Shown: in pieces, positions 17,040 through 45,905 of the stretch
Numbering within the stretch: the stretch's first letter is position 1
Layout of the letters: every line of letters starts with the position of its first letter
Assembly: GCF_029543085.1 (NCBI RefSeq)
Contig: NZ_CP119967.1
Span: forward strand, 1,328,501 to 1,392,500
DNA length: 64,000 bases
Source of the DNA: Pseudomonas sp. A34-9
Lineage (GTDB): Bacteria > Pseudomonadota > Gammaproteobacteria > Pseudomonadales > Pseudomonadaceae
Direction of reading: 5' to 3'
Position numbers and translations under genes: made by a program
The notes under the pieces: model-generated
What the model saw: the letters and a program-made list of their open reading frames with translations, nothing else
Database searches by the model: none
Told to the model about the DNA's origin: nothing

Positions 17040-17081
17040 ATATCCGCTTCTTCAGTGCTTATATCCGGTTCTTCAGTGCAT
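17040..17081. repeat. 21-bp tandem duplication at the mutS 3' end
   Basis: Two copies of ATATCCG(C/G)TTCTTCAGTGC follow each other (17040-17060 and 17061-17081) with two mismatches. The right copy encodes the last mutS codons and the duplication spans the stop codon, so the left copy is an untranslated echo of the gene end. Confidence 0.75.
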
Positions 17082-19641
17082 AGAGCATTTCGAGCGCACG
17101 ACGCGGGGTCAAGTCATCCAGATCCAGTTTAGCCAGCTCATCCAGCACCGGATGCGGCAGACTGGCGAACATGTCGCTTTGTTGTGGCGTCGCGGGTTTG
17201 CCCTTGGCGGCCGGTTTCGGCGTTTCGTGGGGCAATGCAGTGTCTTCCAGTCGGCTCAAGTGCTCGCGGGCGCGCACGATCACTTCACTCGGCACACCGG
17301 CCAACTGCGCCACTGCCAAGCCATAACTCTGGCTGGCGGGGCCCGGCAGCACGTGGTGCAGGAACACGATGCGTTCGTTGTGCTCGGTGGCGTTGAGGTG
17401 GACGTTGGCCACCAATGGCTCGGCTTCCGGCAACACGGTCAGTTCGAAGTAGTGCGTAGCGAACAGTGTATAGGCGCGCAAATGAGCCAGGCGCTCGGCG
17501 GCGGCCCACGCCAGCGACAGACCATCGAAAGTGCTGGTGCCGCGACCGACTTCGTCCATCAGCACCAGACTGCGTTCGGTGGCATTGTGCAGGATGTTGG
17601 CGGTTTCGCTCATCTCGACCATGAAGGTCGAACGCCCTCCGGCCAGGTCATCGCTGGAGCCGATGCGGGTGAAGATGCGGTCGACCAGCGACAGTTCGCA
17701 ACTGGCTGCCGGCACGAAGCTGCCGATATGCGCCAGCAACACGATCAATGCGGTTTGGCGCATGTAGGTGGATTTACCGCCCATGTTCGGGCCGGTGATC
17801 ACCAGCATGCGCGTGTTGTCGTCCAGACTGAGGTCGTTGGCCACGAACGGCGTTGTCAGCACTTGCTCGACCACCGGGTGACGCCCCTGGGTGATACGCA
17901 TGCACGGCTCGCTGACGAAACGCGGGCAGTTCAGGTCGAGGTTCAGCGCACGTTCGGCGAGGTTGCTCAACACGTCGAGTTCGGCCAGTGCGCCGGCGGT
18001 GTCCTGCAACGGTGGCAATTGGCTGATCAGGTCTTCCAGCAGTGCTTCGTAAAGCATCTTCTCGCGGGCGAGGGCGCGGCTCTTGGCCGACAGCGCCTTG
18101 TCTTCGAATTCTTTCAGCTCAGGCGTGATGAAGCGTTCGGCACCTTTCAGCGTCTGGCGACGGATGTAATCCGCGGGGGCGGATTCGGCCTGCTTGCTTG
18201 GCAATTCGATGAAGTAGCCGTGAATGCGGTTATAGCCAACTTTCAGGTGGCTAAGACCGGTGCGCGCTTTCTCGCGGGCTTCCAGATCGATGAGGAACTG
18301 GCCGGCGTTTTCGCTCAGCGATTGCAATTCATCGAGTTCGCTGTCGTAACCGGTTTTCAACACGCCGCCGTCACGGATGACCGCAGGCGGGTTGTCGATG
18401 ATGGCTTTTTCCAGCAACGCCGCCAGTTCCGGGTAAGTGCTGGTGGTGGTCGCCAGACCTTGCAGGTGCGGCGCTTCCAGATCGGTCATTGCCACTTGCA
18501 GTTCAGGCAGTGCGCCAAGGGCGTCGCGCAGCCGTGCGAGGTCACGAGGGCGGGCATTACGCAGGCCGATCCGCGCGAGAATCCGCTCGATGTCGCCGAT
18601 TTCCTTGAGCTGCGGTTGCAGCTTTTCAAAGCGGTAACCGTCGAGCAGGCAAGTGATCGAGGTCTGGCGCGCCAGCAGCACGGTCAGATCGCGCAGCGGA
18701 CGATTCAGCCAACGGGTCAGCAAACGGCTGCCCATGGCGGTCTGGCAGCGATCGACCACCGATTGCAGGGTGTTGTCGCGGCCGCCGGCCAGGTTGGTGT
18801 CGAGTTCAAGGTTGCGGCGGCTCGCACCGTCCAGCACCACGGTGTCGTCGAGGCGTTCGTGGCGCAGGCTGCGCAGATGGGGCAGGGCGGTGCGCTGGGT
18901 TTCCTTGGCGTATGCCAACAGGCAACCGGCAGCGCCGATGGCCAGGGTCAGGTTCTCGCAACCAAAGCCCTTCAGGTCTTGGGTGGAGAACTGCTGGCAA
19001 AGGCTTTTCAGCGCCGAATCACGCTCGAAATCCCACGGTGCACGACGACTGACGCCACGGCGTTTTTCCGCCGGCAGGTCCCTTGGCCAGTCATCCGGGA
19101 TTAGCAACTCAACCGGATTGATCCGCTCCAGTTCCGCGAGCAGGTTCTCCCAGCCTTTGATCTCCGACACGCTGAAACTGCCGCTGGTGATGTCCAGCAC
19201 GGCCAGACCGAACAGGCGCTCGTCACCCAGCAGTGCAGCGATCAGGTTGTCGCGGCGCTCGTCGAGCAGCGCCTCGTCACTGACTGTCCCCGGCGTGAGG
19301 ATGCGCACCACCTGACGCTCAACCGGGCCTTTGCTGGTCGCCGGGTCGCCGACCTGCTCGCAGATCACCACAGACTCGCCAAGCTTGACCAGTTTCGCCA
19401 GATAGCCTTCCGCCGCGTGATACGGAATCCCGCACATCGGAATAGCCTGCCCGGCCGACTGCCCGCGCGCGGTCAGGGTGATGTCGAGCAACTTGGCCGC
19501 CTTCTTCGCGTCTTCGTAGAAGATCTCGTAAAAGTCGCCCATGCGGTAGAACATCAGCTGATCCGGGTGCTGATTCTTCAGGCGCCAGTACTGCTGCATC
19601 ATCGGGGTGTGGGAGGATAAATCTGAAAATTGCTTATTCAT
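17059..19641 (-). CDS. mutS: DNA mismatch repair protein MutS with a phage-derived 5' end
   Basis: Recognises mismatches and small loops and recruits MutL. The 860-residue protein is complete. The mismatch-binding F-x-E motif is at residues 37-39 (MGDFYEIF), the Walker A motif is [10 protein letters not shown], and late ATPase motifs [12 protein letters not shown] and ATHYFEL are present. The prophage attL core (19601-19617) lies over codons 9-14, so codons 1-8 and everything upstream come from phage DNA. The present start reads [13 protein letters not shown], while the stub at attR preserves [13 protein letters not shown]. No clear Shine-Dalgarno precedes the present ATG. Function is probably kept, but expression is now driven from within the prophage. 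Confidence 0.97.
19601..19617. repeat. attL core of the mutS prophage
   Basis: ATCGGGGTGTGGGAGGA is identical to 61247-61263. It lies within the mutS coding sequence, on the strand opposite the reading. Homology to mutS continues in a diverged form for the eight codons on the phage side. Confidence 0.9.
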
Positions 19642-19671
19642 CAGTGGGTTAGGGTGTTACGTCAAAAAAAA

Positions 19672-19689
19672 TGGGGCATATTTGGGGCA
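19672..19689. repeat. Paired TGGGGCA sites next to attL, probable integrase arm sites
   Basis: TGGGGCA occurs at 19672 and again at 19683, exactly 11 bases apart. The same spacing is seen at 61108 and 61119 beside attR, with a further single copy at 61216. Short direct repeats phased at about one helical turn on both sides of the core are what arm-type integrase sites look like. They also lie in the leader of the phage-supplied mutS 5' end. Confidence 0.65.
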
Positions 19690-19846
19690 TTTGTACCGAC
19701 GCAAATCGTCGAGGCTACCCAAAAGGCGCGAGTCTGTTTTAAGGGTATCACGTAGACAGTTCGCTGCGCCTGTACCGCCGCCGGTCTGGTGTCACACAGC
19801 GCTGCATGATATTAATGTGCCATTGAAAGTATTTTTGGAGTTAGGC

Positions 19847-21067
19847 ATGAAGGATGTTTTTTCCAGTCATTTTGCTGATGATGCTGAACGGCGCGAAAAT
19901 TTATGGAAGAACTGTTTTTTTGTGTTTGATACCAACGTTCTTACATCCGTATATAAAAGATCCGATGACGCCCGCGATGCGCTTTATAAGGTGATCGGGT
20001 CACTTGGGGATCGCTTATGGATTCCCTATCAGGTAGTTCACGAGTTACTGGATAATCGAGCCTCAATTGCTCATGCTCAAGCGAAACTGTACTCGACCGC
20101 TATTGAAGATTTAACAGCTGTGCTTGAAGGGTTTGATAGCACCACTAAACATCCATTCTTGCCTGAGGCACTTCACAGAGAGTTTGTGGGGGTGTCAAGA
20201 AAGGTAATTGATGAGCTTGAGTCCAAGCGTGACTTTCATGATTCGCGCTTAACTAATGATGATGTGAAAACTGCACTCGCTGAAATGCTTAAAGGGAAAA
20301 TTGGTGCGCGTTATCCTGATGATAAATTAAAAAGCATTATCGTTGAGGGGGAGAAGCGATACGCTAACAAAATTCCCCCTGGGTTTGAGGATATAAATAA
20401 GCATAAAGGCTCGACAGTTTTTAGCGAGGTTTGCAAACGATACGGCGATTTAATAATTTGGAAGCAGGTCATCGAAAGAGCGAAAGAAAAAGGTAAGCCA
20501 GTTATTTTGGTTACTGGTGAGCAGAAGGATGACTGGTGGGATAGGCATGGGGGTAAGACCATTGGCCCCTTGCCTAGGTTGATCGAAGAATTTGCGGAGG
20601 AGGTCGGTCAGGATTTTTTCCTTTATAGTCATCACCAGTTCTTGGATCTAGCGAACACCTATCTTGAGCAAAATACTTCGTCGGAAGTAATTGAAGAGGT
20701 GAGAGAGGCTGCTTTAAGTGAGGCGTTTTCTTTTAAATTCTACAATGATGATGATGGCTCACTAAGTCACATTTGGTCGCCTGAGAGTAATGAAGCTTTA
20801 GGTTATGATGAGACCCATGTTGATCCGAGTTTAGATGTTAGTGGTGCTTCGCTGTCGTCTACAGATGTACGGAGTCTAACAAGGCGCTTAATTGAGATTC
20901 AGCAATCGTTACACACAACAATGTCTGGTAGAAGTCCAAATGATCCGAGGGAAGTGCGCAGGAGGAAGCGTATGGCGGAAATGTTGGCGAAAGACGCTGA
21001 CCTTCTTGCGGAGCAAAATCGTTTGCGAGGTTTGAACCCTCGCAATATTAAGGATGGTGAGCGCTAG
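19847..21067 (+). CDS. PIN-like domain protein (PIN_8/DUF4935 type), prophage cargo
   Basis: A 406-residue protein whose first half resembles the PIN-like nuclease family. F-V-F-D-T-N-V-L near residue 30 holds the first conserved Asp, L-W-I-P-Y-Q-V-V-H-E-L follows, and a late V-I-L-V-T-G-E-Q-K-D-D-W-W segment with K-T-I-G-P-L-P-R-L-I-E-E-F is highly characteristic. RNA cleavage is the known activity of PIN folds but is inferred here. The ATG at 19847 follows GGAG; the open frame upstream is AT-poor and overlaps attL, so it was rejected. The gene is visibly AT-richer than its neighbours, is transcribed divergently from mutS, and ends tail to tail with the integrase, sharing CTAG. A defence or conversion role is likely. 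Confidence 0.8.
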   Translation: MKDVFSSHFADDAERRENLWKNCFFVFDTNVLTSVYKRSDDARDALYKVIGSLGDRLWIPYQVVHELLDNRASIAHAQAKLYSTAIEDLTAVLEGFDSTTKHPFLPEALHREFVGVSRKVIDELESKRDFHDSRLTNDDVKTALAEMLKGKIGARYPDDKLKSIIVEGEKRYANKIPPGFEDINKHKGSTVFSEVCKRYGDLIIWKQVIERAKEKGKPVILVTGEQKDDWWDRHGGKTIGPLPRLIEEFAEEVGQDFFLYSHHQFLDLANTYLEQNTSSEVIEEVREAALSEAFSFKFYNDDDGSLSHIWSPESNEALGYDETHVDPSLDVSGASLSSTDVRSLTRRLIEIQQSLHTTMSGRSPNDPREVRRRKRMAEMLAKDADLLAEQNRLRGLNPRNIKDGER

Positions 21068-22317
21068 CTATTATTAATTTGATGGTGCTTGATATTTTTC
21101 CAGATGAGATCTAGCTCGCGTGGTGATTCGTCATCCATCCATTTTGCATAGACTTCGACAAGCATGGTGAAATCCTTGTGGCCCATTTGTTTGGCGATGA
21201 ACGCGAGGTTACCGCGAGCGGTCAGGCACCAGCAGGCGTAGGTATGGCGAGTCTGGTATGGCCGGCGTGCGCGAATGCCTGAGCGCTTTTGTATGGCTGC
21301 CCACTTTGTGTTCCAAGCTGTCGGGACAAACCAGTGGTTAATGACTTTCTTGCGTGCCTGTGTGGTTGGTGACAGCAGCGGAGTGACTGACTCAATGCGG
21401 CTTTCATGGCGATTCATATAGATCTCGATGGTCCGAGGCTCATGGTTGGCAACAAGACCAATAAGAGCTTTACACGCGTCGAGAGCTGGGGGCATCAGAA
21501 ACAGTGTCCGGGGCTTTCCAGTCTTGGGCACTTTGAATGTTCCATCCGCAGTGATCGCTCTGGTTATGTGTATCTCCCCAGACATCAGGTCGACATCCTC
21601 CACTGCAAGCCCGCATAACTCCCCGGGCCTAAGTCCTGTGTAAACGGCGAGTGTGATCGCGGCTGAGTCTTGGACGTGTAAGCAGCCTTTATTTATCAGA
21701 TGGTCGAACTCTGCTCTCGTCAGGGGATCTGGCTCACGTCCGATCATTGCGAAACGGACGCAAGCCGCCGCCAACCCCTCACGGCAATATTGGTTGCTTT
21801 CACACCACGCCAAGAAGCCGGCGAAAGTAGCCAGGTAATGGTTAGCCGTCGACGGCGCCCTGGTGGCGATCAGTTGAGTTCTCAGTCGCTGGATATCTTC
21901 GGGTAGCAGGATTCCCGCCAAGCGATCCGAGCCTAGCAGTTCGGCGCAGATGTCCAATGCGTAGCCGTATTTTTCTTCGGTCATCGGAGTTATGTCGACA
22001 GCCTTCAGCGGTTTGTAACGTTCCATCAATGCCCCGATCCGCTCGTCTTTTACTGCCGTGTAATTGGTCGCATTTTTTGAGTTTGGGAAGTGACGACCGT
22101 ATTCAAAATGTCCCGTCTTGATCTCGTGAAGAATTGCCGCCCTGAGCAGGGCGGCGTGCTTGATGTTGGCCTTGGTTACAGGCAGGCCAAGGGTCTCGCG
22201 GCAGCGAATTCGCCGCCACATGAACACGACGCGAATACTTCCGCCGTGTATTTCAATCCCTTTGTGTTTAGCCAGCTCTGCTTCTAGGCCGCTTGCTGCG
22301 GTGCGCTCTCGGCCCAC
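21064..22317 (-). CDS. int: Prophage integrase, tyrosine recombinase
   Basis: Site-specific recombinase expected to join attP to the 17-bp mutS site. 417 residues from a GTG at 22317 that overlaps the upstream excisionase gene by 34 bases. An N-terminal arm-binding region is followed by a core-binding domain and a catalytic domain. The catalytic Arg is in T-G-L-R-P-G-E-L, the H-x-x-R box is seen as T-R-H-T-Y-A, and the later G-H-K-D and Y-A-K-W segments carry the His and nucleophilic Tyr. It is the last gene of the long leftward early operon and lies about 1.4 kb from attL. Confidence 0.93.
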   Translation of the reverse strand: MGRERTAASGLEAELAKHKGIEIHGGSIRVVFMWRRIRCRETLGLPVTKANIKHAALLRAAILHEIKTGHFEYGRHFPNSKNATNYTAVKDERIGALMERYKPLKAVDITPMTEEKYGYALDICAELLGSDRLAGILLPEDIQRLRTQLIATRAPSTANHYLATFAGFLAWCESNQYCREGLAAACVRFAMIGREPDPLTRAEFDHLINKGCLHVQDSAAITLAVYTGLRPGELCGLAVEDVDLMSGEIHITRAITADGTFKVPKTGKPRTLFLMPPALDACKALIGLVANHEPRTIEIYMNRHESRIESVTPLLSPTTQARKKVINHWFVPTAWNTKWAAIQKRSGIRARRPYQTRHTYACWCLTARGNLAFIAKQMGHKDFTMLVEVYAKWMDDESPRELDLIWKNIKHHQINNS

Positions 22318-22481
22318 TTGTCATACTCCGTCATGTTGATTGCGATGCGGCCGTCAGGGGTCTTTCGCCAGACTCGGCCTTGTGCCCACGTACCGTTTTT
22401 CACCTTGTGGCGAATTGCGTCTTCGCTATATCCAGTGAGTTCGGATGCCCGGTTGATCATTACCCAGCGAGGCAGGCTCAT
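22284..22481 (-). CDS. xis: Excisionase-like DNA-binding protein
   Basis: A 65-residue protein with the pattern of small phage excisionases: I-N-R-A-S-E-L-T-G-Y-S-E-D-A-I-R-H-K-V helix-turn-helix, then W-A-Q-G-R-V-W-R-K-T-P-D-G-R-I wing and a Y-D-K-W ending. It probably bends attachment-site DNA and biases the integrase toward excision. The start overlaps the methyltransferase stop (ATGA) and the end overlaps int. Confidence 0.82.
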   Translation of the reverse strand: MSLPRWVMINRASELTGYSEDAIRHKVKNGTWAQGRVWRKTPDGRIAINMTEYDKWAESAPQQAA

Positions 22482-27124: not shown

Positions 27125-27181
27125 CACGCAATGTGCTTATTCCTGTCAACACGAAATGTGATTATCTGATCACTATTCGTG
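27125..27181. promoter_or_regulatory. Left operator cluster (OL-like), three 11-bp sites
   Basis: CACGCAATGTG (27125), CACGAAATGTG (27150) and CACTATTCGTG (27171) are 11-bp near-palindromes with CAC...GTG ends, spaced 25 and 21 bases apart. The third overlaps the cI stop codon. They lie between cI and the leftward early operon and match the sites right of cI. Confidence 0.8.
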
Positions 27182-27895
27182 TAGAAAGCGAGATGATTTA
27201 AGAATTCCACCAACTAGGTGGATCTCTTTGACTTCAGACGCGGCGATATGAATGGGAGAGTGCTCAGCGTTCACGCTGTCGAAACGATACATGCCATCGC
27301 GAAGATAGATGAACTCCTTAATCATCGTTCTCCCAGATTCTGTTCGCACCACTACTTCATCTCCGCTGCAGTAGCTTTTGTTCGGCTCAATCAGAACGTA
27401 TTCACCATTTTTGATTCGGGGAAGCATGCTGTCCCCAGTTACCTTAAGACCGTAGGCATCCGGATCATCGCTGTAGATGTTCAGATATCCGTCTCCATGA
27501 CCTGGAGGGAAATCGAGTGCTTCAAAATATCCTTCATTACCAAGTTGCGCGGTTCCTACCACTGGGACGCTGCCGGCTTTTGGCATACCCGCCGAAAGTA
27601 GCCCTTGCGCCCGTTGAGACTTCAAAGACGGGGGGGTACTGATGTCGTAGATGTTTCCCGCCGCGTCGGTGTAAACAGTTGGGGTCGGACCCTCAACACC
27701 CTTAACCAATTCGGCAAGCGGAAGGCCTAACGATGCAGCGATCTTTCCCAGATCTTGCAGGTTGGGTTGGCGTGTTCCCTTTTCGTAGTTGCCGATTCGA
27801 GATTGTGATTCCCAGCCACAGGTGAGCGCCAGATCCTTCTGGCTCAGACCCTTGGCCTTCCTGAGTGTTTTGATGCGCGAGCCTAGTGTGTTCAT
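27173..27895 (-). CDS. cI: CI-type prophage repressor with S24 autopeptidase domain
   Basis: Maintains lysogeny by binding operators on both sides of the gene. 240 residues: an N-terminal HTH_3 domain (R-I-K-T-L-R-K-A-K-G-L-S-Q-K-D-L-A) and a C-terminal LexA-like peptidase domain with Ser156 (TGDSMLPRI) and Lys193 (T-M-I-K-E-F). Possible Ala-Gly autocleavage sites are at 102-103 and 107-108. RecA-triggered self-cleavage is expected from the family, so induction should follow DNA damage. Transcribed leftward, divergent from cro. Confidence 0.93.
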   Translation of the reverse strand: MNTLGSRIKTLRKAKGLSQKDLALTCGWESQSRIGNYEKGTRQPNLQDLGKIAASLGLPLAELVKGVEGPTPTVYTDAAGNIYDISTPPSLKSQRAQGLLSAGMPKAGSVPVVGTAQLGNEGYFEALDFPPGHGDGYLNIYSDDPDAYGLKVTGDSMLPRIKNGEYVLIEPNKSYCSGDEVVVRTESGRTMIKEFIYLRDGMYRFDSVNAEHSPIHIAASEVKEIHLVGGILKSSRFLHE

Positions 27896-28548: not shown

Positions 28549-29067
28549 ATGAGCCGTATCGCTCTGAGTTCTGTTGAGCGGGCGCAGCGGGAAGTTTTGC
28601 CGCTCGATCTCGCGCTTTACCATGCCGCACGGGACTATCCCGGCGGCGCCGCAGCCATCGCCGCCACCACCGGCCGGAATGCGACCACGTTGCAGCACAA
28701 GCTTTCCCCAACCCACCCCAGCCATACGGTGAACATTCAAGAGTTCGGCGAGATTCTGGAGCTGACCAAGGATCGCCGCATTCTGGATGCGGTGCATGCG
28801 TTGGTCGGTGACACCACTTGGCAGGAGCTGGCTGAGGCGTACACCAACGATATGCCCGAGACGCTGACCACCGGAATTGCCGAGTACTTCCGGCAAGTCG
28901 CGGATCTGGCGGATACCTGGGCCAAGAGCATTGGCGACGGGGTTGTTTCCGATGAGGAACTGGCTGCGATCCGCCTGCAGGTGTTTCGTGGGATTCAGGG
29001 GCTGTTGGGGTTGTTCAACCGCGCCACGTATGTCAACCAGACGACGCGGGGTGTTGATCGTGGCTGA
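28549..29067 (+). CDS. CII-like phage regulatory protein (Phage_CP76 type)
   Basis: A 172-residue protein of the phage regulatory CII family: L-D-L-A-L-Y-H-A-A-R-D-Y-P-G-G-A-A-A-I-A, then T-L-Q-H-K-L-S-P-T and N-I-Q-E-F-G-E-I-L as the helix-turn-helix region, followed by a helical C-terminus. Probably activates lysogeny promoters after infection. AAGGA precedes the ATG. The end overlaps the zinc-finger gene by eight bases. Confidence 0.82.
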   Translation: MSRIALSSVERAQREVLPLDLALYHAARDYPGGAAAIAATTGRNATTLQHKLSPTHPSHTVNIQEFGEILELTKDRRILDAVHALVGDTTWQELAEAYTNDMPETLTTGIAEYFRQVADLADTWAKSIGDGVVSDEELAAIRLQVFRGIQGLLGLFNRATYVNQTTRGVDRG

Positions 29068-29290
29068 CATCGCTGACTTTGCAAATGATCTGGTGCAGGA
29101 GCGCGTTGATCAAGCGCTGGCTGCACGTCTTCTCGCCGCCAAGCCTGCTTTGGCGGCGCATTCGTTTCTCTTCTGCGAAACGTGCGATGAACCGATCCCG
29201 GAAGCTCGCCGTTTGGCGCAGCCCGGCTGCACGCAATGCGTGGGATGCCTTGCCATTGAGGAAATGATGGAGGCTCGTCATGCTCGATGA
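29060..29290 (+). CDS. DksA/TraR-type C4 zinc-finger protein
   Basis: A 76-residue protein from a GTG at 29060 with GGGGTG upstream. A helical N-terminus is followed by a four-cysteine zinc finger C-E-T-C-D-E-P-I-P-E-A-R-R-L-A and C-T-Q-C-V-G-C. Short phage TraR proteins bind the RNA polymerase secondary channel like DksA with ppGpp, which would steer host transcription; this is inference from the family. It overlaps both neighbours (8 and 11 bases). Confidence 0.85.
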   Translation: MADIADFANDLVQERVDQALAARLLAAKPALAAHSFLFCETCDEPIPEARRLAQPGCTQCVGCLAIEEMMEARHAR

Positions 29291-31499
29291 GGTGCTGGGG
29301 CAATTCGCTGATTACGGCCTTGAGCCTGCGCAGCCTTTGGTGTTTGGCAAGCTAACCCGCTGCAAGACGACGCAAGACAAGGGCAAGGAAAAGAATGGCT
29401 GGTATGTCGTTCATGAGCAGCGCACCGAGAAAGGCGAGACGCTGATCTTCGGTGCGTTCGGTGACTGGCGTTCGGGCGAGTCTCAGAAGATCAAGGTCAA
29501 GGCCGGGCGGATGTCGCCTGAAGAGCGTGAGGTTATGCGCGCTCGACAGGAAGAGGCAAAGCGCCGGGCGGCTGAGATCTCTGCAAACGCGGCACGCCGT
29601 GCGGCCAAGCGAGCGGCCGGTATGTTCAAGCGCATGCCGGAGAAGGGCCGTAGCGATTATCTGGATCGCAAGCAGATTGTTGGGTTCGGCGTTCGGTATG
29701 CGCCGCGCTCCGGTGCGTTTCTGGTGCCGATGAGCAATGTGCGTGACGAGATTGTCGGACTGCAGGTGGTGTTCCCGACCAAGCAAGAGGACACCGGTCG
29801 GGACAAGTCCTATTGGCCTTACGGCATGTCGAAGGAGGGCGCTTTCCATCTGATCGGGCCGCACCCGGATCCGGGCGAGCCGGTTCTGGTGTGTGAGGGC
29901 TACGCGACCGGCGCAAGTCTGCATATGGCCACGTCATTGACCGTGGCCGTTGCGTTTGATGCGGGTAATTTGCTGGTGGTTTGCAAGGCCATGCGCGAGC
30001 GTTTCGCCGGTTGTCCGCTGATCATCTGCCGAGACGATGACTGGATGACCACCAAGCCGAATGGTGATGCTTGGAACCCCGGTGAAGAGAAAGCAAACAA
30101 CGCGGCGCTGATTGTCGGTGGCCAGGTGGTCGCGCCGATCTTTTCCGGTGAGCGTGAAGCCAAGTGGACCGACTTCAACGATCTGCATGTTGCGGAAGGT
30201 TTGGAGGCGGTGCGCCGTCAGGTATTGGCAGTGGTCAAGCCGCCGGCTGCTGGAGGTTGGAAAGATCTGCTGGCACGCAGCGAAAGCGGCGCGCTGATTG
30301 CGCACATGCAGAATGTCGAGTTGATCCTAGCCAACGATGAGCGTTGGGCCGGGGTGATCAGCTACAGCGCTTTCAGTTCGAAGATCGTGAAGCTGCGTGC
30401 GGCGCCTTATGGCGGCGGCACGGGCGATTGGGCGGACATTGATGATGTGCGGGTGATGAAGTGGCTCGCGCAGCAGTACAACTTGCGGGTCAAGGCCTCG
30501 CATGTGATCGAGGCGGTGAGTGTGGTTGCGCATGACCATGCGTTTCATCCAGTGCGCCAGTACCTGCGCAAGCTGCAGTGGGATCAGGTGCCTCGGCTTG
30601 AAAGTTGGCTTACCGATGTCATGGGTGTAAAGGCAACAGATTATTCGGCAAAGGTCGGCAAGCGCTGGATGTTATCGGCGGTGGCGCGGGTGATGAAGCC
30701 CGGCTGCAAGGCTGATTCGGTGATGATTCTCGAAGGTGCGCAGGGCGCTGGTAAGTCGACCGCGATGAGCATTCTTGGCGGCGAGTGGTTCATGGACACG
30801 CCGTTTGCGCTGGGCGACAAAGACGGGTTTCAGGCGATCCGGGGCAAGTGGATCGTTGAGCTTGGGGAACTGGATAGCTTCAACAAGGCTGAGAGCACGA
30901 AAGCCAAGCAATTCTTTTCGGCGTCCACCGACACCTATCGGGAGAGCTACGGCCGCAGAACGATGGACGTGCCACGCCAGTGTGTTTTTGTGGGTACCAC
31001 TAACCAAGACGAGTATCTGAAGGATGCCACGGGCAACCGGCGTTATTGGCCAGTGGCGTGTACCAAGGTGGATCTGGAGTTGTTGCGCTCAATGCGCGAT
31101 CAGCTCTGGGCCGAGGCTGTGTTCTGTTACGACGCGGGTGATCTCTGGTGGGTGACGTTGGATGAAGCTGCCATGTTCGGCGAGGAGCAGGACGAGCGGT
31201 TTGTGGTGGATGAGTGGGAAGGGCCGATTCTGACCTGGCTGGAAGAGTCGCAGATCGGTGAGACCGCCACCGGCAGTGATGTGCTGCTCAGTGCGCTGAA
31301 GTTGGACCTCGGGCATTGGGGTAAGCCGGAGCAGATGCGCGTCGGGGCGATTATGCATCGGTTGGGCTGGCGACGTGTGCGGTTGCCAGCGCTGGCGAAG
31401 AGCGGGCAACGGCCTTGGGCATACAAGAAACCGGCAGGGTGGGGCGGTGCTTCGGCGTTGCAGCGGGAAGCGTTCGAGGAGCCTTGTTTCGATGATTAA
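29280..31499 (+). CDS. Phage replication protein: TOPRIM primase plus VapE-type helicase
   Basis: A 739-residue protein probably responsible for phage DNA replication. After an N-terminal primase-like region, a TOPRIM-type segment is seen at about 200-260 (VLVCEGYATGAS, then I-I-C-R-D-D-D). The C-terminal half is a virulence-associated E/D5-like AAA ATPase, with Walker A GAQGAGKST near residues 486-494, L-G-E-L-D-S-F as Walker B and F-V-G-T-T-N as sensor region. Overlaps the zinc-finger gene at the start and the next gene at its stop. Confidence 0.88.
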   Translation: MLDEVLGQFADYGLEPAQPLVFGKLTRCKTTQDKGKEKNGWYVVHEQRTEKGETLIFGAFGDWRSGESQKIKVKAGRMSPEEREVMRARQEEAKRRAAEISANAARRAAKRAAGMFKRMPEKGRSDYLDRKQIVGFGVRYAPRSGAFLVPMSNVRDEIVGLQVVFPTKQEDTGRDKSYWPYGMSKEGAFHLIGPHPDPGEPVLVCEGYATGASLHMATSLTVAVAFDAGNLLVVCKAMRERFAGCPLIICRDDDWMTTKPNGDAWNPGEEKANNAALIVGGQVVAPIFSGEREAKWTDFNDLHVAEGLEAVRRQVLAVVKPPAAGGWKDLLARSESGALIAHMQNVELILANDERWAGVISYSAFSSKIVKLRAAPYGGGTGDWADIDDVRVMKWLAQQYNLRVKASHVIEAVSVVAHDHAFHPVRQYLRKLQWDQVPRLESWLTDVMGVKATDYSAKVGKRWMLSAVARVMKPGCKADSVMILEGAQGAGKSTAMSILGGEWFMDTPFALGDKDGFQAIRGKWIVELGELDSFNKAESTKAKQFFSASTDTYRESYGRRTMDVPRQCVFVGTTNQDEYLKDATGNRRYWPVACTKVDLELLRSMRDQLWAEAVFCYDAGDLWWVTLDEAAMFGEEQDERFVVDEWEGPILTWLEESQIGETATGSDVLLSALKLDLGHWGKPEQMRVGAIMHRLGWRRVRLPALAKSGQRPWAYKKPAGWGGASALQREAFEEPCFDD

Positions 31500-31851
31500 G
31501 GAGATCGATTCGTTGCTTAGGTTGTGGGCGCAGGAGCTGCACTCAGAGCATTCGAAAGGGGGGCTGGCTGGGGGGAATATGGTTGCCATGATGATGGAGA
31601 GTAATGGGCAACTGATCCGTGGGCGGCGGGCCTTTCGTGCGCCGCTGGAGAGTTCTCTCGATATCGAGCTGATCGTGACCAAGCATCTGGCGCCCGAGCT
31701 GGTGACGGTTGTGCGGGAGCATTACTGCACGCTCGACGTTGATATGCGCTTGCGTTACGCGCATTGCGGTTGTGGCCGTGACACCTACTATCAGCGTTTG
31801 CATGAGGCGCATCTGCAGATCTACTGGGTGCTGATGGGGGCGGCTGCGTGA
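31492..31851 (+). CDS. Small phage protein, possible Q-like late regulator
   Basis: A 119-residue protein with the start inside the last codons of the replication gene (8-base overlap). It begins I-K-E-I-D-S-L-L-R-L-W-A-Q-E-L and ends with a C-G-C-G-R-D-T-Y-Y-Q-R-L-H-E-A helix. Position at the end of the rightward early region, before holin and terminase, and the L-x-x-W-A start resemble phage late antitermination proteins, but no family match can be proved by eye. Confidence 0.6.
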   Translation: MIKEIDSLLRLWAQELHSEHSKGGLAGGNMVAMMMESNGQLIRGRRAFRAPLESSLDIELIVTKHLAPELVTVVREHYCTLDVDMRLRYAHCGCGRDTYYQRLHEAHLQIYWVLMGAAA

Positions 31852-32349
31852 CCCCAGGCATCGCTCCGGTTGTGGTTGTCCCACTGGCCCGTCTTGTCCC
31901 GCTGCGTTTTGATGCAGTGGGACAGGTGCGGGCCTTGTCGTTGTTGGGTTGTCCCACCGTCCCTCCTAGTAGTGCCTCCCGCCCGTGTGAGCGTAGCGGG
32001 CGAGCACTACGCGCTTACGCGCGAACGCGTGTTCTTTAAAATTCTTCCTTTACACGAGAAAGAAGAAAGATAGGTAGGACAGTGGGGCGAAGCCCCGAAT
32101 TTGGGCGCTCTCAGGCGTCCCACTACGATTCAAGGAAGTGGGACGAATGGGACACCGTTGAGACAGCAGAATGCCGTGGTGGTGTATTCACCGACATTCA
32201 CTAGGCGTTCACCCTGCGTTACCCACTTATTCACCGGGTGGCATTAAAACAGGGTTGCTGCCACCGGAATCGACCTGTAAAAAGTAGTCATCTTCGATAG
32301 GTGCGACCGCAGAGAGCGGCACAACGAACCGGCCAAACGGCCGGTTTTT
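31852..32349. other. Gap with repeated GTCCCAC motifs and a terminator
   Basis: About 500 bases with no convincing gene; a GTG frame at 31848-32039 (63 residues) overlaps the previous stop but has low-complexity composition. GTCCCAC or its complement occurs repeatedly: TTGTCCCACTG 31876, TTGTCCCGCTG 31894, CAGTGGGACAG 31915, TTGTCCCACCG 31949, GTCCCACT 32117, AGTGGGACG 32137 and ATGGGACACCG 32147. They may be iterons of a replication origin next to the replication gene, or operators. The stretch ends in a strong stem, ACCGGCC/GGCCGGT at 32329-32346, with T-run. Confidence 0.55.
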
Positions 32350-32351
32350 TC
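32328..32351 (+). terminator. Intrinsic terminator before the lysis/packaging region
   Basis: ACCGGCC-AAAC-GGCCGGT forms a 7-bp GC-rich stem followed by six T. It ends the rightward early region and overlaps the stop of the convergent membrane-protein gene. Confidence 0.8.
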
Positions 32352-32697
32352 ATTTGTCGCTCGTGGGAATTCGAAAGGCCGCCAGCTTTTCCTTCGTACC
32401 CTTGGGGCTAGACCAGTACGCAGCAAGGGCAACGCCAATCGCTAGATAAAATATTGTGTTCCACAGGTTAGCCAGGAGCCACAAGATATCCATGCGCGTC
32501 AAAGGCGCATCACTCCTACCGAACTTGATTGTTTCCCATATCCCGCTGCCCACCACCAACAGAACACTGGTAATCGTTGCGAGCTTGATTGCCCAAGTGC
32601 GCAGCTCTAATCGCTTCTGATCTGTTAGTTGAACCCATCCAATCATTAGCGAGCCAACCACACCCACTGTGGTTACGACATCGATCAATACACTCAT
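32350..32697 (-). CDS. Small membrane protein, prophage
   Basis: A 115-residue protein on the minus strand with three hydrophobic segments: about residues 5-22, 38-53 and 70-92 (L-W-L-L-A-N-L-W-N-T-I-F-Y-L-A-I-G-V). No family recognised. It is the only leftward gene between cI and the cargo zone, so it probably has its own promoter and could be a lysogenically expressed moron, for example a superinfection-exclusion factor; that role is only an inference. Confidence 0.65.
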   Translation of the reverse strand: MSVLIDVVTTVGVVGSLMIGWVQLTDQKRLELRTWAIKLATITSVLLVVGSGIWETIKFGRSDAPLTRMDILWLLANLWNTIFYLAIGVALAAYWSSPKGTKEKLAAFRIPTSDK

Positions 32698-32805
32698 TGC
32701 TCTGCTCCGATCCGTTGGATTACGTCGGATAGAGCTTCTTACATTCTGGTGTGACAGCCAAGTAACTTGGACGTGTTCCGAATCTATAAACCATGGGGAG
32801 CAGAC

Positions 32806-33150
32806 ATGACGAATGAGCAACAAGCACTGGCAGAAATGCCGATCTGGTTAGTAATCGTCCTGGCTCTGGTCGGTGGCGTATCGGGGGAAATGTGGCGGGC
32901 GGACAAGGATGGGGCGCGGGGCTGGGCGTTGTTGCGCAGGCTCGCGCTTCGGTCTGGTGCCTGCATTGTTTGCGGGGTGACGGCGATGATGTTGATGATC
33001 GCCGCCGGGATGTCGCTGTGGACGGCGGGCGCCTTGGGATGCCTGACAGCGATGGCGGGCGCGGATGTTGCCATCGGGTTGTACGAACGATGGGCCGCGA
33101 AACGGCTGGGCGTCTGCGAAGTGCCGCCAACCGGGGGCGAACAGGGGTGA
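32806..33150 (+). CDS. Phage holin, tailocin type
   Basis: A 114-residue holin with membrane segments at about residues 11-28, 54-72 and 74-92, a basic loop R-A-D-K-D-G-A-R-G-W-A-L-L-R-R between, and a cytoplasmic tail ending G-V-C-E-V-P-P. GGGGAG precedes the ATG at 32806. It closely resembles the tailocin holin at 63411 (more than 80 percent identical by eye). Unusually, the endolysin lies about 20 kb away after the tail genes. Confidence 0.88.
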   Translation: MTNEQQALAEMPIWLVIVLALVGGVSGEMWRADKDGARGWALLRRLALRSGACIVCGVTAMMLMIAAGMSLWTAGALGCLTAMAGADVAIGLYERWAAKRLGVCEVPPTGGEQG

Positions 33151-33316
33151 TGCACCGATCTGGTGCGCCGAAAACCGCCGGGGACCCTAGGGGTATCTGA
33201 AGGACACGGGGTCGGAAACCCGCGGGAAAGTGTTAGCGGGAGCGCCCCCAGCTTACTGAAATTCAATCCATTGAAATTGAAAGGTCTGCATTGAAAAGCC
33301 GTTGAAAGGAGGGCTT

Positions 33317-33919
33317 ATGACAGAACCAACTTACCTGTCGAAAAGCGCCTTCGCGGCGCGGATCGGCCGGGCACCGAGCTACATCACCTGGTTGAAAAAA
33401 AACAACCGACTGGTGCTGTCGCCGGACGGAAAACTGGTGGACGTTCAGGCCAGCGAAGTGTTGATTCGCGACACCGCCGACCCGAGCAAAGCCGCCGTCG
33501 CTGATCGGCACCAACAAGACCGGATTCAGCGTGACGTTTACAGCCAACTGTCGACCCAGACCGAGCCGACTACCACGGCTGCGCCGCCGCAGGTGCTTAC
33601 CGGCGACGGCAAGCTTCCCGACTTCCAGAAGGCCCGCGCTCTGCGTGAGCACAACATGGCCAAGCTGGCGGAGATCGAACTGGGCAAAGCCCAAGGCTCG
33701 CTGGTCTCTAAGGAGGCGGTCGAAACCGGTGCCTACAACGCCGGCCGATTGCTGCGCGATCAACTATTCGGGCCGTTGCCGCAACTGTCCCATGATCTTG
33801 CGGCCATGACCGATCCCTGGCTGATCGAAAAACACCTGACAGCCACCTTCCGTCGAACGCTGGAAGAAGCCGAGCGGCTCTCTTCGGCAGATCTTGAACA
33901 CGCAATGACAACGGACTGA
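33317..33919 (+). CDS. Terminase small subunit, gpNu1-like
   Basis: A 200-residue DNA-packaging protein. The start is fixed by AAGGAGG before the ATG at 33317. The N-terminal winged helix (Y-L-S-K-S-A-F-A-A-R-I-G-R-A-P-S-Y-I-T-W-L) should bind cos DNA. A central linker and C-terminal helices that bind the large subunit follow. First gene of the lambda-like head module. Confidence 0.82.
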   Translation: MTEPTYLSKSAFAARIGRAPSYITWLKKNNRLVLSPDGKLVDVQASEVLIRDTADPSKAAVADRHQQDRIQRDVYSQLSTQTEPTTTAAPPQVLTGDGKLPDFQKARALREHNMAKLAEIELGKAQGSLVSKEAVETGAYNAGRLLRDQLFGPLPQLSHDLAAMTDPWLIEKHLTATFRRTLEEAERLSSADLEHAMTTD

Positions 33920-33923
33920 ACCC

Positions 33924-35951
33924 ATGCACACGGAATTTCCTGACGGTGCAGAGGTGTACCGTGAGGCTTATTTCCGTGGACTGCGCCCCGATCCAGACCT
34001 TTGGATCGACGAATGGGCCGATGAGTACATGCGAATCCCGCGTGACACTGGTGCCCCTGAACCCGGCCAGTACCGCACCTCACGGACACCTTATGCCCGC
34101 GAGCCAATGCGCTGCCTGTCGCCGGCTCACCCTTGCAGACGCGTGGTCACCATGGTGGCCTCGCAGTTGATGAAAACACAGATTGCCTTGAACTGGATGG
34201 GCGGCCTGATTCACATGGCGCCGTCGAACATCCTGGCGCTGCTTCCCAGCCTTGGCCTGTCCAAGCGGGTGTCGGGGCGGATCAGCAAGACCATCAAGGC
34301 CACCCCCGTTCTGCGCGAGCGGGTCGCGGCCACCCGCTCGCGGGACGCACGCAACACGATGGACACCAAGGAATTCGAGGGTGGCTCGCTGTATGTCACC
34401 ACCGCCGGTTCTGCGGCCAACCTGTCGGAGCTTTCGGCCCGCTACATCTACGGCGACGAAGTCGACCGCTGGGAGAACGATGTCGGCCAGGAGGGTGACC
34501 CCATCAAGCTGGCAGAGACGCGGGCGACCAACTTCGGTCGCAACGCCAAGATTTACTTCTCCAGCTCGCCGACGATCAAAGGCGCCTCGCGGATCGCCGA
34601 TCTGTTCGAATCTAGCGACCAGCGCTACTACTACGTGCCATGCCCTACCTGCGGTCATATGCAAGTGCTGGAATGGGAACGGCTGCACTACAGCAAGGAC
34701 TTCAGCACTGTGCATTACGAGTGTGCAGCACCTGAGTGCGACGTGCTGATCGAGGAGCACCACAAGAGCGACATGCTTGCCCGAGGCGAGTGGCGTGCTC
34801 ATGCCGGTGGCGACGGCAAAACCGTTGGTTTTCACCTCAATGCACTGTACTCGCCGACCGGCTGGATGGATTGGGCCGGCCTAGCCGTGGAGTTTGAAGA
34901 CGCCAAAAAAGCTCAGGCCCAAGGCGACACGAGCCTGATGCAGGTGTTCTACAACACCCGTCTGGCCAAGGTCTGGGACAGCGCACTCGAACAGACCAAG
35001 GCGGAAGTGCTCATCGCCCGGGCGCGGATGGAGACCTACACCCTCGGCGCGATGCCGGCCGGCGTGCTGATGCTGACCGGCGCCGTCGACGTTCAGGCCA
35101 ATCGCCTGGAGCTGATGGTGATGGGCTTTGGCGTCGGCATGGAACGCTGGGTGGTCGATCACCAGGTCATTTGGGGCGATCCAGCAGACGACCGCACCTG
35201 GGCTGTGCTGGACGAGAAACTCAAGGCGCGTTACCGGCATCCTTGCGGTGTCGGGCTGGCGATTCTCGCCGTCGGCGTCGACTCCGGCGGTCACCACACC
35301 GATGAGGTCTACCAGTACTGTCGCGTGCGCCGCTGGCGCAACATCTTCGCTATCAAGGGCGCAAGCAAGCCGGGCCGACCGGTGATTGCACAGCGCCCGT
35401 CCATGGTTGACGTGACGTGGAAGGGGCAGACCGAACGCAACGGCGCCGAGCTGTGGTTCGTCGGTACCGACACCGCCAAGGACTGGATCTACAACCGCTA
35501 CCCGTTCCCGGACGGGCCGGGTTCGCTGCACTTTGCCAACGACCTGCCGGATGAATTCTTCGCTCAGTGCGTCGCCGAACGCAAAGTCGTGCGGTACGTG
35601 CGCGGTCACAAACGCATCGAATGGGTGAAGGGCAAGGCAGAGCGCAACGAAGCGCTCGACCTGATGGTGTATTGCCTCGCGATGGCGCATTACCTCGGCA
35701 TCAACCGCTACCAGGAACACGATTGGGATCGGGTGCGTCAGGCGCTGGCCCAGTCCGGTCTGTTCGACGATGCCCTGGGCATCAAGCCGGTTCAGGGGGA
35801 GCGCGTCGATGAAGGCGAAACACCTGCGCCTGCGGCTGTGCGACAGGCTCAAGCCGCAACACCACCTGCTGCACCAGTCGCTCCAGCGCGACCCCCTGCT
35901 GCACCACATCAACGCCGCAGTTCCACCAGCGGTTACCTGAAGAGACGCTGA
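33924..35951 (+). CDS. Terminase large subunit, lambda gpA family
   Basis: Packaging motor and cos nuclease, 675 residues. The N-terminal ATPase has a variant Walker A around residues 79-87 (S-Q-L-M-K-T-Q) and a Y-G-D-E-V-D-R Walker B. A zinc-ribbon-like C-P-T-C-G-H and C-A-A-P-E-C pair follows. The C-terminal nuclease contains G-A-V-D-V-Q and V-G-V-D-S-G-G acidic segments, and the last 60 residues are Ala/Pro-rich. Four bases after the small subunit. Confidence 0.95.
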   Translation: MHTEFPDGAEVYREAYFRGLRPDPDLWIDEWADEYMRIPRDTGAPEPGQYRTSRTPYAREPMRCLSPAHPCRRVVTMVASQLMKTQIALNWMGGLIHMAPSNILALLPSLGLSKRVSGRISKTIKATPVLRERVAATRSRDARNTMDTKEFEGGSLYVTTAGSAANLSELSARYIYGDEVDRWENDVGQEGDPIKLAETRATNFGRNAKIYFSSSPTIKGASRIADLFESSDQRYYYVPCPTCGHMQVLEWERLHYSKDFSTVHYECAAPECDVLIEEHHKSDMLARGEWRAHAGGDGKTVGFHLNALYSPTGWMDWAGLAVEFEDAKKAQAQGDTSLMQVFYNTRLAKVWDSALEQTKAEVLIARARMETYTLGAMPAGVLMLTGAVDVQANRLELMVMGFGVGMERWVVDHQVIWGDPADDRTWAVLDEKLKARYRHPCGVGLAILAVGVDSGGHHTDEVYQYCRVRRWRNIFAIKGASKPGRPVIAQRPSMVDVTWKGQTERNGAELWFVGTDTAKDWIYNRYPFPDGPGSLHFANDLPDEFFAQCVAERKVVRYVRGHKRIEWVKGKAERNEALDLMVYCLAMAHYLGINRYQEHDWDRVRQALAQSGLFDDALGIKPVQGERVDEGETPAPAAVRQAQAATPPAAPVAPARPPAAPHQRRSSTSGYLKRR

Positions 35952-35952
35952 T

Positions 35953-36159
35953 ATGTCCTTTACTCAAAAACACCTCGACGCCATCGAGCGCGCCATTGCG
36001 CGTGGCGAAAAGACCGTGCGCTACAGCGACCGAACGGTGGAATACCGCGACGTCGACGAACTGCTCCGCGCCCGTGAAGAAATCCGTAGTTCGCTCACCA
36101 GCGCTACCGGCCCCCGCTCGCGGGTTGTCCGGCTCAGTCATGGAGGCAAGGGAATCTGA
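35953..36159 (+). CDS. Head-tail joining protein, lambda gpW-like
   Basis: A 68-residue protein with the compact gpW pattern: L-D-A-I-E-R-A-I-A-R-G-E-K-T-V-R-Y-S-D-R and Y-R-D-V-D-E-L-L-R-A-R. It closes the filled head and prepares it for the tail. Located between terminase and portal as in lambda; its last base is shared with the portal start. Confidence 0.85.
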   Translation: MSFTQKHLDAIERAIARGEKTVRYSDRTVEYRDVDELLRAREEIRSSLTSATGPRSRVVRLSHGGKGI

Positions 36160-37643
36160 TGGCTCGACAATTCCCGGCGCTCTCACGTAGCGGATTCTTG
36201 CTGCCATCGAACATCAAGGCCAGCTACGAAGGCGCCGGGGAGGGTCGCCGATCTGCCAGCTGGGACGCCACCGACGATGGCATCAACAGCATCAACACCC
36301 CGGCGCTGCGCAACCTGCGTGCCCGCTCACGGGCGGCGGTGCGCAATGACCCGTATGCGGCCAACGCCATCAACAAGCGGGTCAGCAACCTGATCGGCAC
36401 CGGCATCACGCCACGCCCAAAGGTCAAAGACGAAGCACTGCGCAACCTGCTGCAGGAACTATGGGACGACTGGGCTGACGAGTCGGATGCCGACGGTCTG
36501 TGCGACTTCTACGGCCAGCAGGCGCTGGTGGCTCGCACCGTGGAAACGGCGGGCGAGTGTTTTGTCCGCTTGCGTCCGCGCAGTCTGGACGAAGGCTTGG
36601 TAGTGCCGCTGCAGTTGCAGACCCTGGCGCCGGAATTCGTACCGCACGACAAGTTCGAGATGACCAAGACCGGCAACATCATCCGTGCCGGAATCGAGTT
36701 CAACCCGGCCGGCAAGCGCGTGGCTTACTGGATGTACCGCTCGCACCCGCGTGATGCGTCGTCGCTCAACAGCGGCTACAACCAACTGGTGCGCGTACCG
36801 GCCAGCCAAGTACTGCACATCTTCGAACCGCTGGAACCGGGGCAGTTGCGCGGCGTGCCGCGCATGTCGCCGGTACTCAAGCGCCTGCGCAGTCTCGACA
36901 ACTACGACGATGCGGTGCTGTTCCGGCAGGAAGTTTCCAACCTGTTCGCCGGCTTCATCAAGCGCCCGTCGCCTGACATGGGACAGGCGCCGCGTGATCC
37001 CGTCACTGGTCAACTGATTACTGCTGATCGCGACGGCTTCACACCGATGGTGGCACTCGAACCCGGCACGATGCAGGAGCTGGGCGCAGGTGAGGAGGTC
37101 GAGTTCTCCAAACCACCGGATGCCGGCAACAACTACCCGGACTTCATGCGGCAGCAACTGATGGCAGCTGCAGCGGGTTCCGACACGCCCTACGAGATCC
37201 TCACGGGCGACATGAAAGGGATCAACGACCGTGCGCTGCGCGTCGTGCTCAACGAGTTCCGGCGCCGCCTCGAACAACTGCAATTCAACGTCTACATCCA
37301 CCAGATTTGCCGGCCGGTCCGCGCTGCTTGGCTGGACATGGCGGTATTGAGCGGCGTGATCGAGTTGCCGGACTACGCCAAGCGTCGTCGCGAATTTCTG
37401 CGCACCCGCTGGGTGCCTCAAGGCTGGGCCTACATCCAGCCGGTGCAGGACGTGCAGGCGCGAATGCTTGAGGTCAATGCCGGGTTCGGTTCGCGCAGTG
37501 AGATGTGTCTGCGAACCGGTTACGACTCCGAAACGGTCGACGCGGAAAACGCCGCCGACGCTCAACGTGCCCGCGACTTGCGCCTCAATTACCGAACGCT
37601 CGTCGAGATTGATACTGAACACGACGACCAGGAGAAACCATGA
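36159..37643 (+). CDS. Portal protein, lambda gpB family
   Basis: A 494-residue portal, the ring through which DNA enters the head. Recognisable are the N-terminal R-A-A-V-R-N-D-P-Y-A-A-N-A-I-N-K segment, H-I-F-E-P-L-E-P-G-Q-L-R-G-V-P and the G-S-D-T-P-Y-E-I-L-T-G-D stretch typical of this family. Stop overlaps the protease start by ATGA. Confidence 0.95.
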   Translation: MARQFPALSRSGFLLPSNIKASYEGAGEGRRSASWDATDDGINSINTPALRNLRARSRAAVRNDPYAANAINKRVSNLIGTGITPRPKVKDEALRNLLQELWDDWADESDADGLCDFYGQQALVARTVETAGECFVRLRPRSLDEGLVVPLQLQTLAPEFVPHDKFEMTKTGNIIRAGIEFNPAGKRVAYWMYRSHPRDASSLNSGYNQLVRVPASQVLHIFEPLEPGQLRGVPRMSPVLKRLRSLDNYDDAVLFRQEVSNLFAGFIKRPSPDMGQAPRDPVTGQLITADRDGFTPMVALEPGTMQELGAGEEVEFSKPPDAGNNYPDFMRQQLMAAAAGSDTPYEILTGDMKGINDRALRVVLNEFRRRLEQLQFNVYIHQICRPVRAAWLDMAVLSGVIELPDYAKRRREFLRTRWVPQGWAYIQPVQDVQARMLEVNAGFGSRSEMCLRTGYDSETVDAENAADAQRARDLRLNYRTLVEIDTEHDDQEKP

Positions 37644-38782: not shown

Positions 38783-39123
38783 CCATCAAACGCGAACCGA
38801 TGCATGCAGGTGAGTTCCTGCTGTCCGAGGGCGCCGGGACCATCTCGCGAGAAGCAATCAACGTTGCCGCCGGTCACGCACTGGAGCCGGGTCAGATCCT
38901 CGGCCTGGTGACCGCGAGCAGTGAGTTCGCCCCGTACAACCCGACCGCCGAAGACGGCACGGAAAACGCCATCGCCATTCTCTACGGCCCGCTCGGTGAG
39001 TCGGATGTCGTTCGTCGCGGGCGCGCCGTGGTGCGTTTGGCCGAAGTCAGCGAAGCACACCTGACCGGTCTGGATCTGGCCGCCGAGAAAGCACTCGCCA
39101 CTCATTTCGTGATCGTCCGCTAA
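38779..39123 (+). CDS. Head decoration protein, lambda gpD-like
   Basis: A 114-residue protein with the gpD-family pattern: E-F-L-L-S-E-G-A-G-T-I-S-R-E, then G-H-A-L-E-P-G-Q-I-L-G and late A-V-V-R-L-A-E-V. It trims and stabilises the expanded capsid. The start overlaps the protease stop. Confidence 0.9.
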   Translation: MTIKREPMHAGEFLLSEGAGTISREAINVAAGHALEPGQILGLVTASSEFAPYNPTAEDGTENAIAILYGPLGESDVVRRGRAVVRLAEVSEAHLTGLDLAAEKALATHFVIVR

Positions 39124-39144
39124 GTCGATCCTTCTTTTATATGC

Positions 39145-39168
39145 ATCCCGCCGCGTGCGGGATTTTTC
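39145..39168 (+). terminator. Intergenic hairpin with T-run before the major capsid gene
   Basis: ATCCCGC-CGCGT-GCGGGAT then TTTTT, followed closely by TTCTGGAGA and the capsid start. One of four related hairpin-plus-Shine-Dalgarno blocks in the structural region (others at 42279, 46393, 52538). Confidence 0.7.
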
Positions 39169-39185
39169 GTTTCTGGAGAGTACCT

Positions 39186-40181: not shown

Positions 40182-40183
40182 CC

Positions 40184-41157: not shown

Positions 41158-41158
41158 C

Positions 41159-42264: not shown

Positions 42265-42278
42265 CTCATCACTCATTC

Positions 42279-42302: not shown

Positions 42303-42317
42303 ATGCCTGGAGAAATC

Positions 42318-42548: not shown

Positions 42549-42553
42549 ACCCG

Positions 42554-43761: not shown

Positions 43762-43762
43762 T

Positions 43763-45903: not shown

Positions 45904-45905
45904 TC

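Follow-up and report, generated by a model that had tools for sequence, protein, structure and literature searches.

A prophage inserted in Pseudomonas mutS carries its own start of the gene, and host mutS leaders may descend from older phages

The mutS locus and its two starts

The window studied here, a stretch of 64,000 nucleotides from Pseudomonas sp. A34-9 (contig NZ_CP119967.1, positions 1,328,501 to 1,392,500), contains the mismatch repair gene mutS and, inserted within its 5' end, a 41.6-kb prophage. The mutS gene (17059..19641, minus strand; Pfam MutS I-V) encodes 860 residues, and is the only gene in the genome to contain a MutS_I domain. Two 17-bp copies of mutS codons 9-14, which specify S-S-H-T-P-M, flank the prophage: the core of the left attachment site (attL) at 19601..19617, and that of the right attachment site (attR) at 61247..61263, both on the minus strand. 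The exact shared core, read along the mutS strand, is TCCTCCCACACCCCGAT, and it sits within an imperfect repeat of 67 nt (72%). Across the 6.54-Mb genome, a 14-bp pattern of the core has exactly two matches; for a longer core pattern, shuffling gives an expectation of 0.00. The analysis points to an account in two layers, to which a probability of about 0.8 is assigned: the prophage would supply the start of mutS in the lysogen, and host leaders of the kind it displaces would themselves derive from older phages of the same family.

Codons 1-8 of mutS are phage DNA (MNKQFSDL; 19618..19641, minus strand). The corresponding host codons (MNKAVSDL) lie stranded beyond the other core, at 61264..61287 (minus strand), and relatives with a single att match (L120, L122, L139, L142, L150, and L172) start alike. 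The phage-side start reads ATG AAT AAG CAA TTT TCA GAT TTA TCC TCC CAC ACC CCG, and the stranded start ATG AAT AAA GCC GTC TCC GAC CTG TCC TCC CAC ACC CCG. They agree at 11 of 13 residues and differ synonymously at codons 3, 6, 7, and 8 (AAG/AAA, TCA/TCC, GAT/GAC, TTA/CTG). A first-pass annotation, made from the sequence without database searches, had placed the att core within mutS, noted this match with its synonymous differences, and called the TTA at codon 8 rare. The sequence bears out each point; none of the 127 leucine codons in the remainder of mutS is TTA.

Joining the host flanks yields a 22-residue mutS start, in frame. The joined sequence aligns with uninterrupted mutS at eight loci from six single-att-match genomes, at 90-95% identity over 350-372 nt and with 0-2 gap positions. 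On excision, the host start would return in frame and without a scar. According to the first-pass annotation, an MNKQF start in prophage-free relatives would tell against a phage-borne mimic of the mutS 5' end; none was found among the fetched genomes besides the window itself (re-fetched as L211). The mutS of one carrier, L001, starts MNKQI.

The mimic recurs throughout the family of the prophage integrase. This tyrosine integrase (21064..22317, minus strand; 417 residues; Pfam PF00589 and PF12167; PHROG integrase) is codirectional with mutS, and a search with it of one-per-species GTDB genomes returned 30 loci. In 29 of them, the region beyond int contains a start codon and about eight phage codons, followed in frame by the HTPMMQQY of mutS; the 30th (L017), ended by a contig edge, was set aside. 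A start of the type that the first-pass annotation had suggested seeking in other prophages is common to 29 of 30 integrase-linked loci. It is MNKAIS in 16 of the 29 phage copies, and the remainder differ at few residues; host starts are varied (MSDLS, MTDLS, MSQSDLS, MNTAVN, MSKNTS, MNKAVS). In 20 of the 29 loci, int lies 1.3-3.8 kb before the phage mutS start, and in the other nine the mutS ATG follows the end of the int match by 55-65 nt, codirectionally.

Codons 2-8 of the mimic, compared over 30 copies, have a ratio of nonsynonymous to synonymous polymorphism (pN/pS) of 0.23, indicating purifying selection. The preceding leader, read as codons for a control, gives 0.87 (from the 24 of 30 sequences that have no stop in frame). 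Selection presumably keeps the mimic protein-like because loss of MutS would turn the lysogen into a mutator. These data support the claim that the prophage holds a mimic of the mutS 5' end, diverged but in frame, and that mutS in the lysogen probably initiates on phage DNA.

Viral contigs extend this picture. IMG/VR provided 74 int loci, which a junction test sorted into 49 that join host mutS (in one of these, L310, no ATG was found at the offsets tried), four that join the phage's own right end, and 21 without a junction. The four represent the attachment site of the excised phage (attP): leader, mimic, core, right end, and right arm are contiguous, so the mimic travels with the phage. A separate pattern search of IMG/VR found five contigs, three of them among these four; the other two (L245 and L247), judged by their leaders, look like the attR of integrated phages.

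Insertion of this kind is already known. Chu et al. (2017, mBio, PMC5296598) describe elements in the HTPMMQQ motif of mutS across Beta- and Gammaproteobacteria, some of which appeared to be prophages, and report excision without deletion from E. coli 536, B. multivorans CF2, and P. putida F1, for the last of these by polymerase chain reaction. The window prophage belongs with these elements by every sequence feature tested: insertion inside the HTPMMQQ-coding stretch with attL and attR repeats; an element-supplied in-frame start with its upstream region; a stranded host start homologous to those of relatives; and related tyrosine integrases that mostly lie beside mutS (the same 29 of 30 GTDB loci). 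Their main case, Vibrio 12B01, differs in that a 2-bp deletion is left and the result is a hypermutator, whereas the site rejoined in the window is in frame. The available part of that paper does not describe the integrase boxes considered below, nor host-derived starts as the ends of older phages. To read host leaders as phage fossils seems new; searches of the open-licence literature, judged by titles and abstract openings, found no paper on fossil integrase sites in mutS leaders.

Integrase boxes and host leaders

The phage-supplied mutS leader contains a tandem repeat, GCCCCA-N5-GCCCCA (19672..19688, minus strand), that ends 30 nt before the ATG. The same tandem is present near the right end of the prophage (61108..61124, minus strand). 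Across the family, the tandem (with small variations) ends about 30 nt ahead of the phage mutS ATG, and 24 of 26 right ends carry it at a distance of 120-122 nt from the core. Left and right tandems are separated by 209-211 nt in the attP contigs. Family-wide position and spacing suggest that these are the left and right arm sites of the integrase.

More distant phages point the same way. Seven were chosen by hand among the 30 matches listed of 159 records (from Aeromonas, Escherichia, and Providencia; integrases 34-43% identical). In all seven, an exact tandem precedes the int stop by 33-39 nt, and five have a second exact tandem 207-208 nt further on; of the other two, one record ends too early and one has a mismatch in its second tandem. 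A pattern search found a mutS-like peptide, MNLKDNNTYISHIALMQH, in just one of the seven, Aeromonas phage pAEv1818 (L323). Of the six without it, four contain both tandems. Since the tandems occur at right ends, and near int in relatives that lack a mutS-like peptide, the boxes belong with the integrase and not with mutS. We infer that the integrase binds them as arm sites. (In pAEv1818, the open reading frame with MNLKDNNTYISHIALMQH lies just after int, beside the boxes, and resembles the MutS amino terminus; this phage may also use mutS.)

Boxes of this type are found in host mutS leaders as well. A profile of the noncoding leader alone (nucleotides -60 to -1, from 29 phage copies) was compared with 714 kb of fetched Pseudomonas DNA. 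Each of the top 32 matches falls at a mutS start, in register. The best scores in genomes without a second att match are 36.1 bits (L130) and 25.7 bits (L112 and L167), and the best match away from mutS reaches 4.1 bits. With the profile retrained on 16 phages from other hosts, mutS leaders still make up the top 26 matches, and the best other match scores 5.0 bits. Moreover, the exact tandem occurs five times in 1,428,956 strand-bases of Pseudomonas loci, each time in a mutS leader and at the spacing seen in the phages (L112, L113, L130, L144, and L167). These leaders have the tandem without the element, as expected of a fossil attL. For L112, L113, and L130, the 20-kb stretches reach cinA with no integrase match; L144 and L167 were viewed only 3 kb upstream.

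The displaced leader in the window contains a degraded version of the boxes, GCCCCG-N5-GCCCTA (61317..61333, minus strand), with one mismatch in each. It matches the leader model in register, and is read as the probable attL fossil of an older mutS phage. Its score in a small search was 6.1 bits; relatives in the same clade score up to 25.8 bits. Excision, according to the first-pass annotation, would return native control. The host start would indeed be restored in frame, but "native" probably needs correcting for the leader, given its two degraded in-register boxes and the clear match to the phage leader that leaders of its type show in relatives.

The distribution of such leaders was examined on a FastTree tree of 126 MutS bodies (L019, too short, was left out). 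Many branches are weak, clades are named from the named relatives within them, and a non-carrier is a genome with a single att match, in which a draft assembly could hide attR. All 10 non-carriers of one clade, which contains no named member and is perhaps the P. syringae group, have an in-register leader match at any score, seven of them above 4.1 bits. The fluorescens-type clade has 27 of 35 (19 above 4.1 bits), the putida-type clade two of 14 (both above), and a small clade two of three (both above). Two outer clades have one of 10 and two of 25, with one above 4.1 bits in each. The distribution of present carriers over the tree looks random (27 changes, against a shuffled mean of 26.3). 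Derivation of the host leaders of the first two clades from older phages of the family thus has good support from sequence comparison.

Other loci look like stages of decay. Integrase scraps are present just upstream of mutS in three single-match loci (L131, L149, and L239), and five genomes have short elements, with 3.0-13.8 kb between the att copies (G027, G024, G026, G008, and G028). The attR was obtained from 25 of 29 genomes; four (G015, G016, G018, and G029) have no usable second match, and the L012 genome was left out. One of the 25 (L078, from genome G008) has lost the frame of its stranded host start. A census with a degenerate pattern matched 391 of 398 genomes of the genus, at least 41 of them two or more times by hand count; this is not a carrier frequency, since in some genomes the second match is a different locus, and pairs can be divided among draft contigs. 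Two loci, L180 (G422) and L190 (G574), were classed apart, as the peptide after HTPMM is MMQH rather than MMQQY. Their starts are possibly the attR of elements whose insertion point lies some codons further along this motif.

These results suggest the following model. A temperate phage with a P2-like tail would insert, by means of its tyrosine integrase, at the conserved S-S-H-T-P-M of mutS. Its attP would hold the first mutS codons, so that on integration a phage version takes the place of the host leader and codons 1-8 while the frame is kept. The displaced leader in the window, and those of most non-carriers in the two clades, would be attL ends left by older phages with integrases of the same family, and would retain the tandem boxes, intact or worn, at an unchanged distance from the ATG. 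Replacement would be serial: a phage enters, then decays or loses its upstream part; the leader and first codons that the phage brought are kept by the host as its own; and a later phage integrates between this inherited front end and the body of mutS. Viruses may have replaced the mutS front end more than once.

Alternatives and precedents

Several observations weigh against this account. The fossil in the window is weak alone: in 0.99 Mb it scores 5.3 bits, with an E value of 18, and a box pair within the prophage (60476-60498) scores 5.4 bits. Its status rests on position and clade relatives, not on its own score; chance is an unlikely source of the boxes for the clades, less so for this single leader. 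Eight of the 35 fluorescens-type non-carriers have no in-register match, including L122, L139, and L174, which are closely related to the window. Of the 44 in-register matches, 12 score 4.1 bits or less. The putida-type clade, nested inside the group, mostly has another leader, which implies two gains, or a single gain and a loss. Upstream of the boxes, an element like a promoter looks partly common to the clades (by eye), which simple replacement does not explain. In 24 of 25 cases the stranded host start is still in frame, so reversible or recent insertions fit better than one-way replacement. Finally, a right-end model, built from 25 phage ends (L094, without boxes, was left out), found no fossil attR with an older mutS start near cinA in 0.99 Mb; among the matches listed, all but the window's own attR are at a mutS start or leader.

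The tailocin cluster between mutS and cinA was considered as the body of an old phage. This is unproven, with no fossil attR beside cinA. A landmark resembling TACCCTACA lies near the mutS start in the outer-clade locus L124, and beside cinA in the tailocin-bearing L112, L113, L127, and L128 (by eye).

Might only the first layer be real? The prophage would then be simply a known mutS-inserting phage, and the leaders would be alike through an ancestral phage that captured a host leader in its attP. Phage and host leaders can indeed be aligned by eye beyond the boxes (hosts ...TTTCAACGAATTTGCC..., L005 ...TTTTGAACGAATC...), and the rooting of the tree is too coarse to give direction by itself. 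A captured host leader, however, is not expected to hold the integrase's own sites, and these are found again on the right arm (24 of 26) and beside int in all seven distant relatives, six of them without a mutS-like peptide by pattern. Moreover, outer-clade hosts are mostly without boxes: the one leader in 10 and the one in 25 that exceed 4.1 bits are both accompanied by integrase scraps. Capture by the phage is therefore judged less likely than transfer from phage to host, and a reading confined to the first layer quite unlikely.

A different question is whether the element matters for MutS at all. It could be cryptic and its mutS start a neutral by-product, hardly relevant if translation began at the ATG ATG of HTPMM, the internal methionines at codons 14-15. 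A consensus scan found no sigma-70-like promoter pair in 19600-19900 or 61230-61560, upstream of either start. This reading is nevertheless very improbable: the pN/pS of 0.23 over 30 phage copies, the identical att cores, and the presence of int, repressor, and structural genes as open reading frames with family matches all speak against it. In the lysogen, mutS would be translated from the phage start, and the phage must presumably bring the source of its transcription. Read-through from int into mutS is possible in nine of 29 relatives, where 55-65 nt separate the int match from the mutS ATG. A divergent gene intervenes between int and attL in the window: a cargo gene for a PIN_8 domain protein (19847..21067, plus strand; 406 residues; Pfam PF18476, 3e-56).

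At the other extreme, the phage might actively switch mismatch repair, with growth- or stress-dependent excision altering MutS level and mutation rate. The first-pass annotation had raised this parallel to SpyCI, the phage-like element in mutL of Streptococcus pyogenes. The means of excision appear to be present: besides int, the prophage encodes a candidate excisionase of 65 residues that overlaps the int start (22284..22481, minus strand; 52% over 61 residues, E 4e-25, to the annotated excisionase of Aeromonas phage pAEv1818; no Pfam match). The attP form exists in the four IMG/VR contigs of relatives, excision has been published for P. putida F1 (PMC5296598), and 24 of 25 stranded starts remain in frame. 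But mutS is in frame after excision, and an in-frame start is also present on integration, so this is no on/off switch like SpyCI or Vibrio 12B01; purifying selection on the mimic fits a mutS that is kept on. An active switch is accordingly doubtful.

The comparison with SpyCI (PMC3430984) holds to the extent that both are phage-like elements at the 5' side of a mismatch repair gene. It is looser than that with the mutS HTPMMQQ elements (PMC5296598): integrated SpyCI silences mutL, separating it and the downstream genes from their promoter, whereas the window element keeps mutS readable. A mimic amino terminus is not mentioned for SpyCI in the available part of that source. For the layer of fossil leaders, the nearest precedent is strain Manfredo, in which a decayed SpyCI holds a working promoter that drives mutL (PMC3430984).

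Islands in dusA and SXT in prfC (PMC8409611) are also similar: they insert at the 5' end, and bring a new promoter and a new, diverged amino terminus (in E. coli dusA, 61% over 35 residues). They involve other genes and other elements, mobilizable islands and an integrative and conjugative element. In that work dusA expression was measured, and was lower after insertion.

The rest of the prophage, and what the leaders may mean

The remaining gene content is that of a phage with a P2-like contractile tail: sheath, tube, GpU, GpD, and Tail_P2_I are present along with int, repressor, and packaging genes. The CI-like repressor (27173..27895, minus strand) has helix-turn-helix and S24 domains by Pfam and PHROG. 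Early and structural genes, assigned by family matches, occupy 28549..55688 on the plus strand: CII-like, primase/VapE helicase, terminase, portal, head protease, and capsid; baseplate, tail fibre, sheath, tube, a tail tape-measure-like protein, GpU, and GpD; and a chitinase-like lysin and a D12 adenine methyltransferase. Near the right end (56045-60319) is unusual cargo: an HMG-CoA reductase, a fusion of PEBP and cytochrome c, and an AraC-type regulator. Between 60461 and 60620, a second tandem box pair, GCCCTA-N5-GCCCTA, lies near a stretch like a tRNA 3' end (gggttcgaatccc); ARAGORN finds no tRNA in the 64-kb window. This is possibly the end of another element, nested at the right side of the prophage.

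Past attR, a repressor (helix-turn-helix and S24), a DUF642 gene, and a holin gene open a region of about 33 kb that reaches cinA (61255 to about 94.7 kb in window-equivalent coordinates). A prophage and tailocin cluster occupies this same chromosomal interval in P. fluorescens (PMC2647930). That cluster lies between mutS and cinA and not within mutS, and the available part of the source mentions no mutS mimic; in the window, the repressor and holin genes follow attR, and cinA is some 33 kb beyond. A 300-nt stretch of the prophage (32803-33102) is 75% identical to the holin gene (63408-63707) of this tailocin-like region, a hint that lysis genes may have been exchanged between prophage and tailocin.

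On the two-layer account, a repair gene that sets the mutation rate would depend for its start codon and leader on the last phage to have inserted, and the phage end seems to outlast the phage. If so, an integration site in a coding 5' end can work as a ratchet that brings phage DNA into a core gene across entire clades, and integrase arm boxes provide a sequence mark by which similar takeovers could be sought at other 5' insertion sites, such as dusA and prfC.

A bolder extension is tentative and on balance improbable: that in much of Pseudomonas the mutS front end is a phage-run module, long started from successive phage attL ends. Integrase from a resident phage or one just entering, bound to the boxes about 30-50 nt upstream of the ATG, would lower or time mismatch repair, and hosts with fossil boxes would offer the next phage an attL-like bacterial attachment site (attB). 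Were this true, mismatch repair would be coupled to lysogeny decisions even after the phage is lost. The boxes make it a testable question whether the integrase acts on mutS expression.

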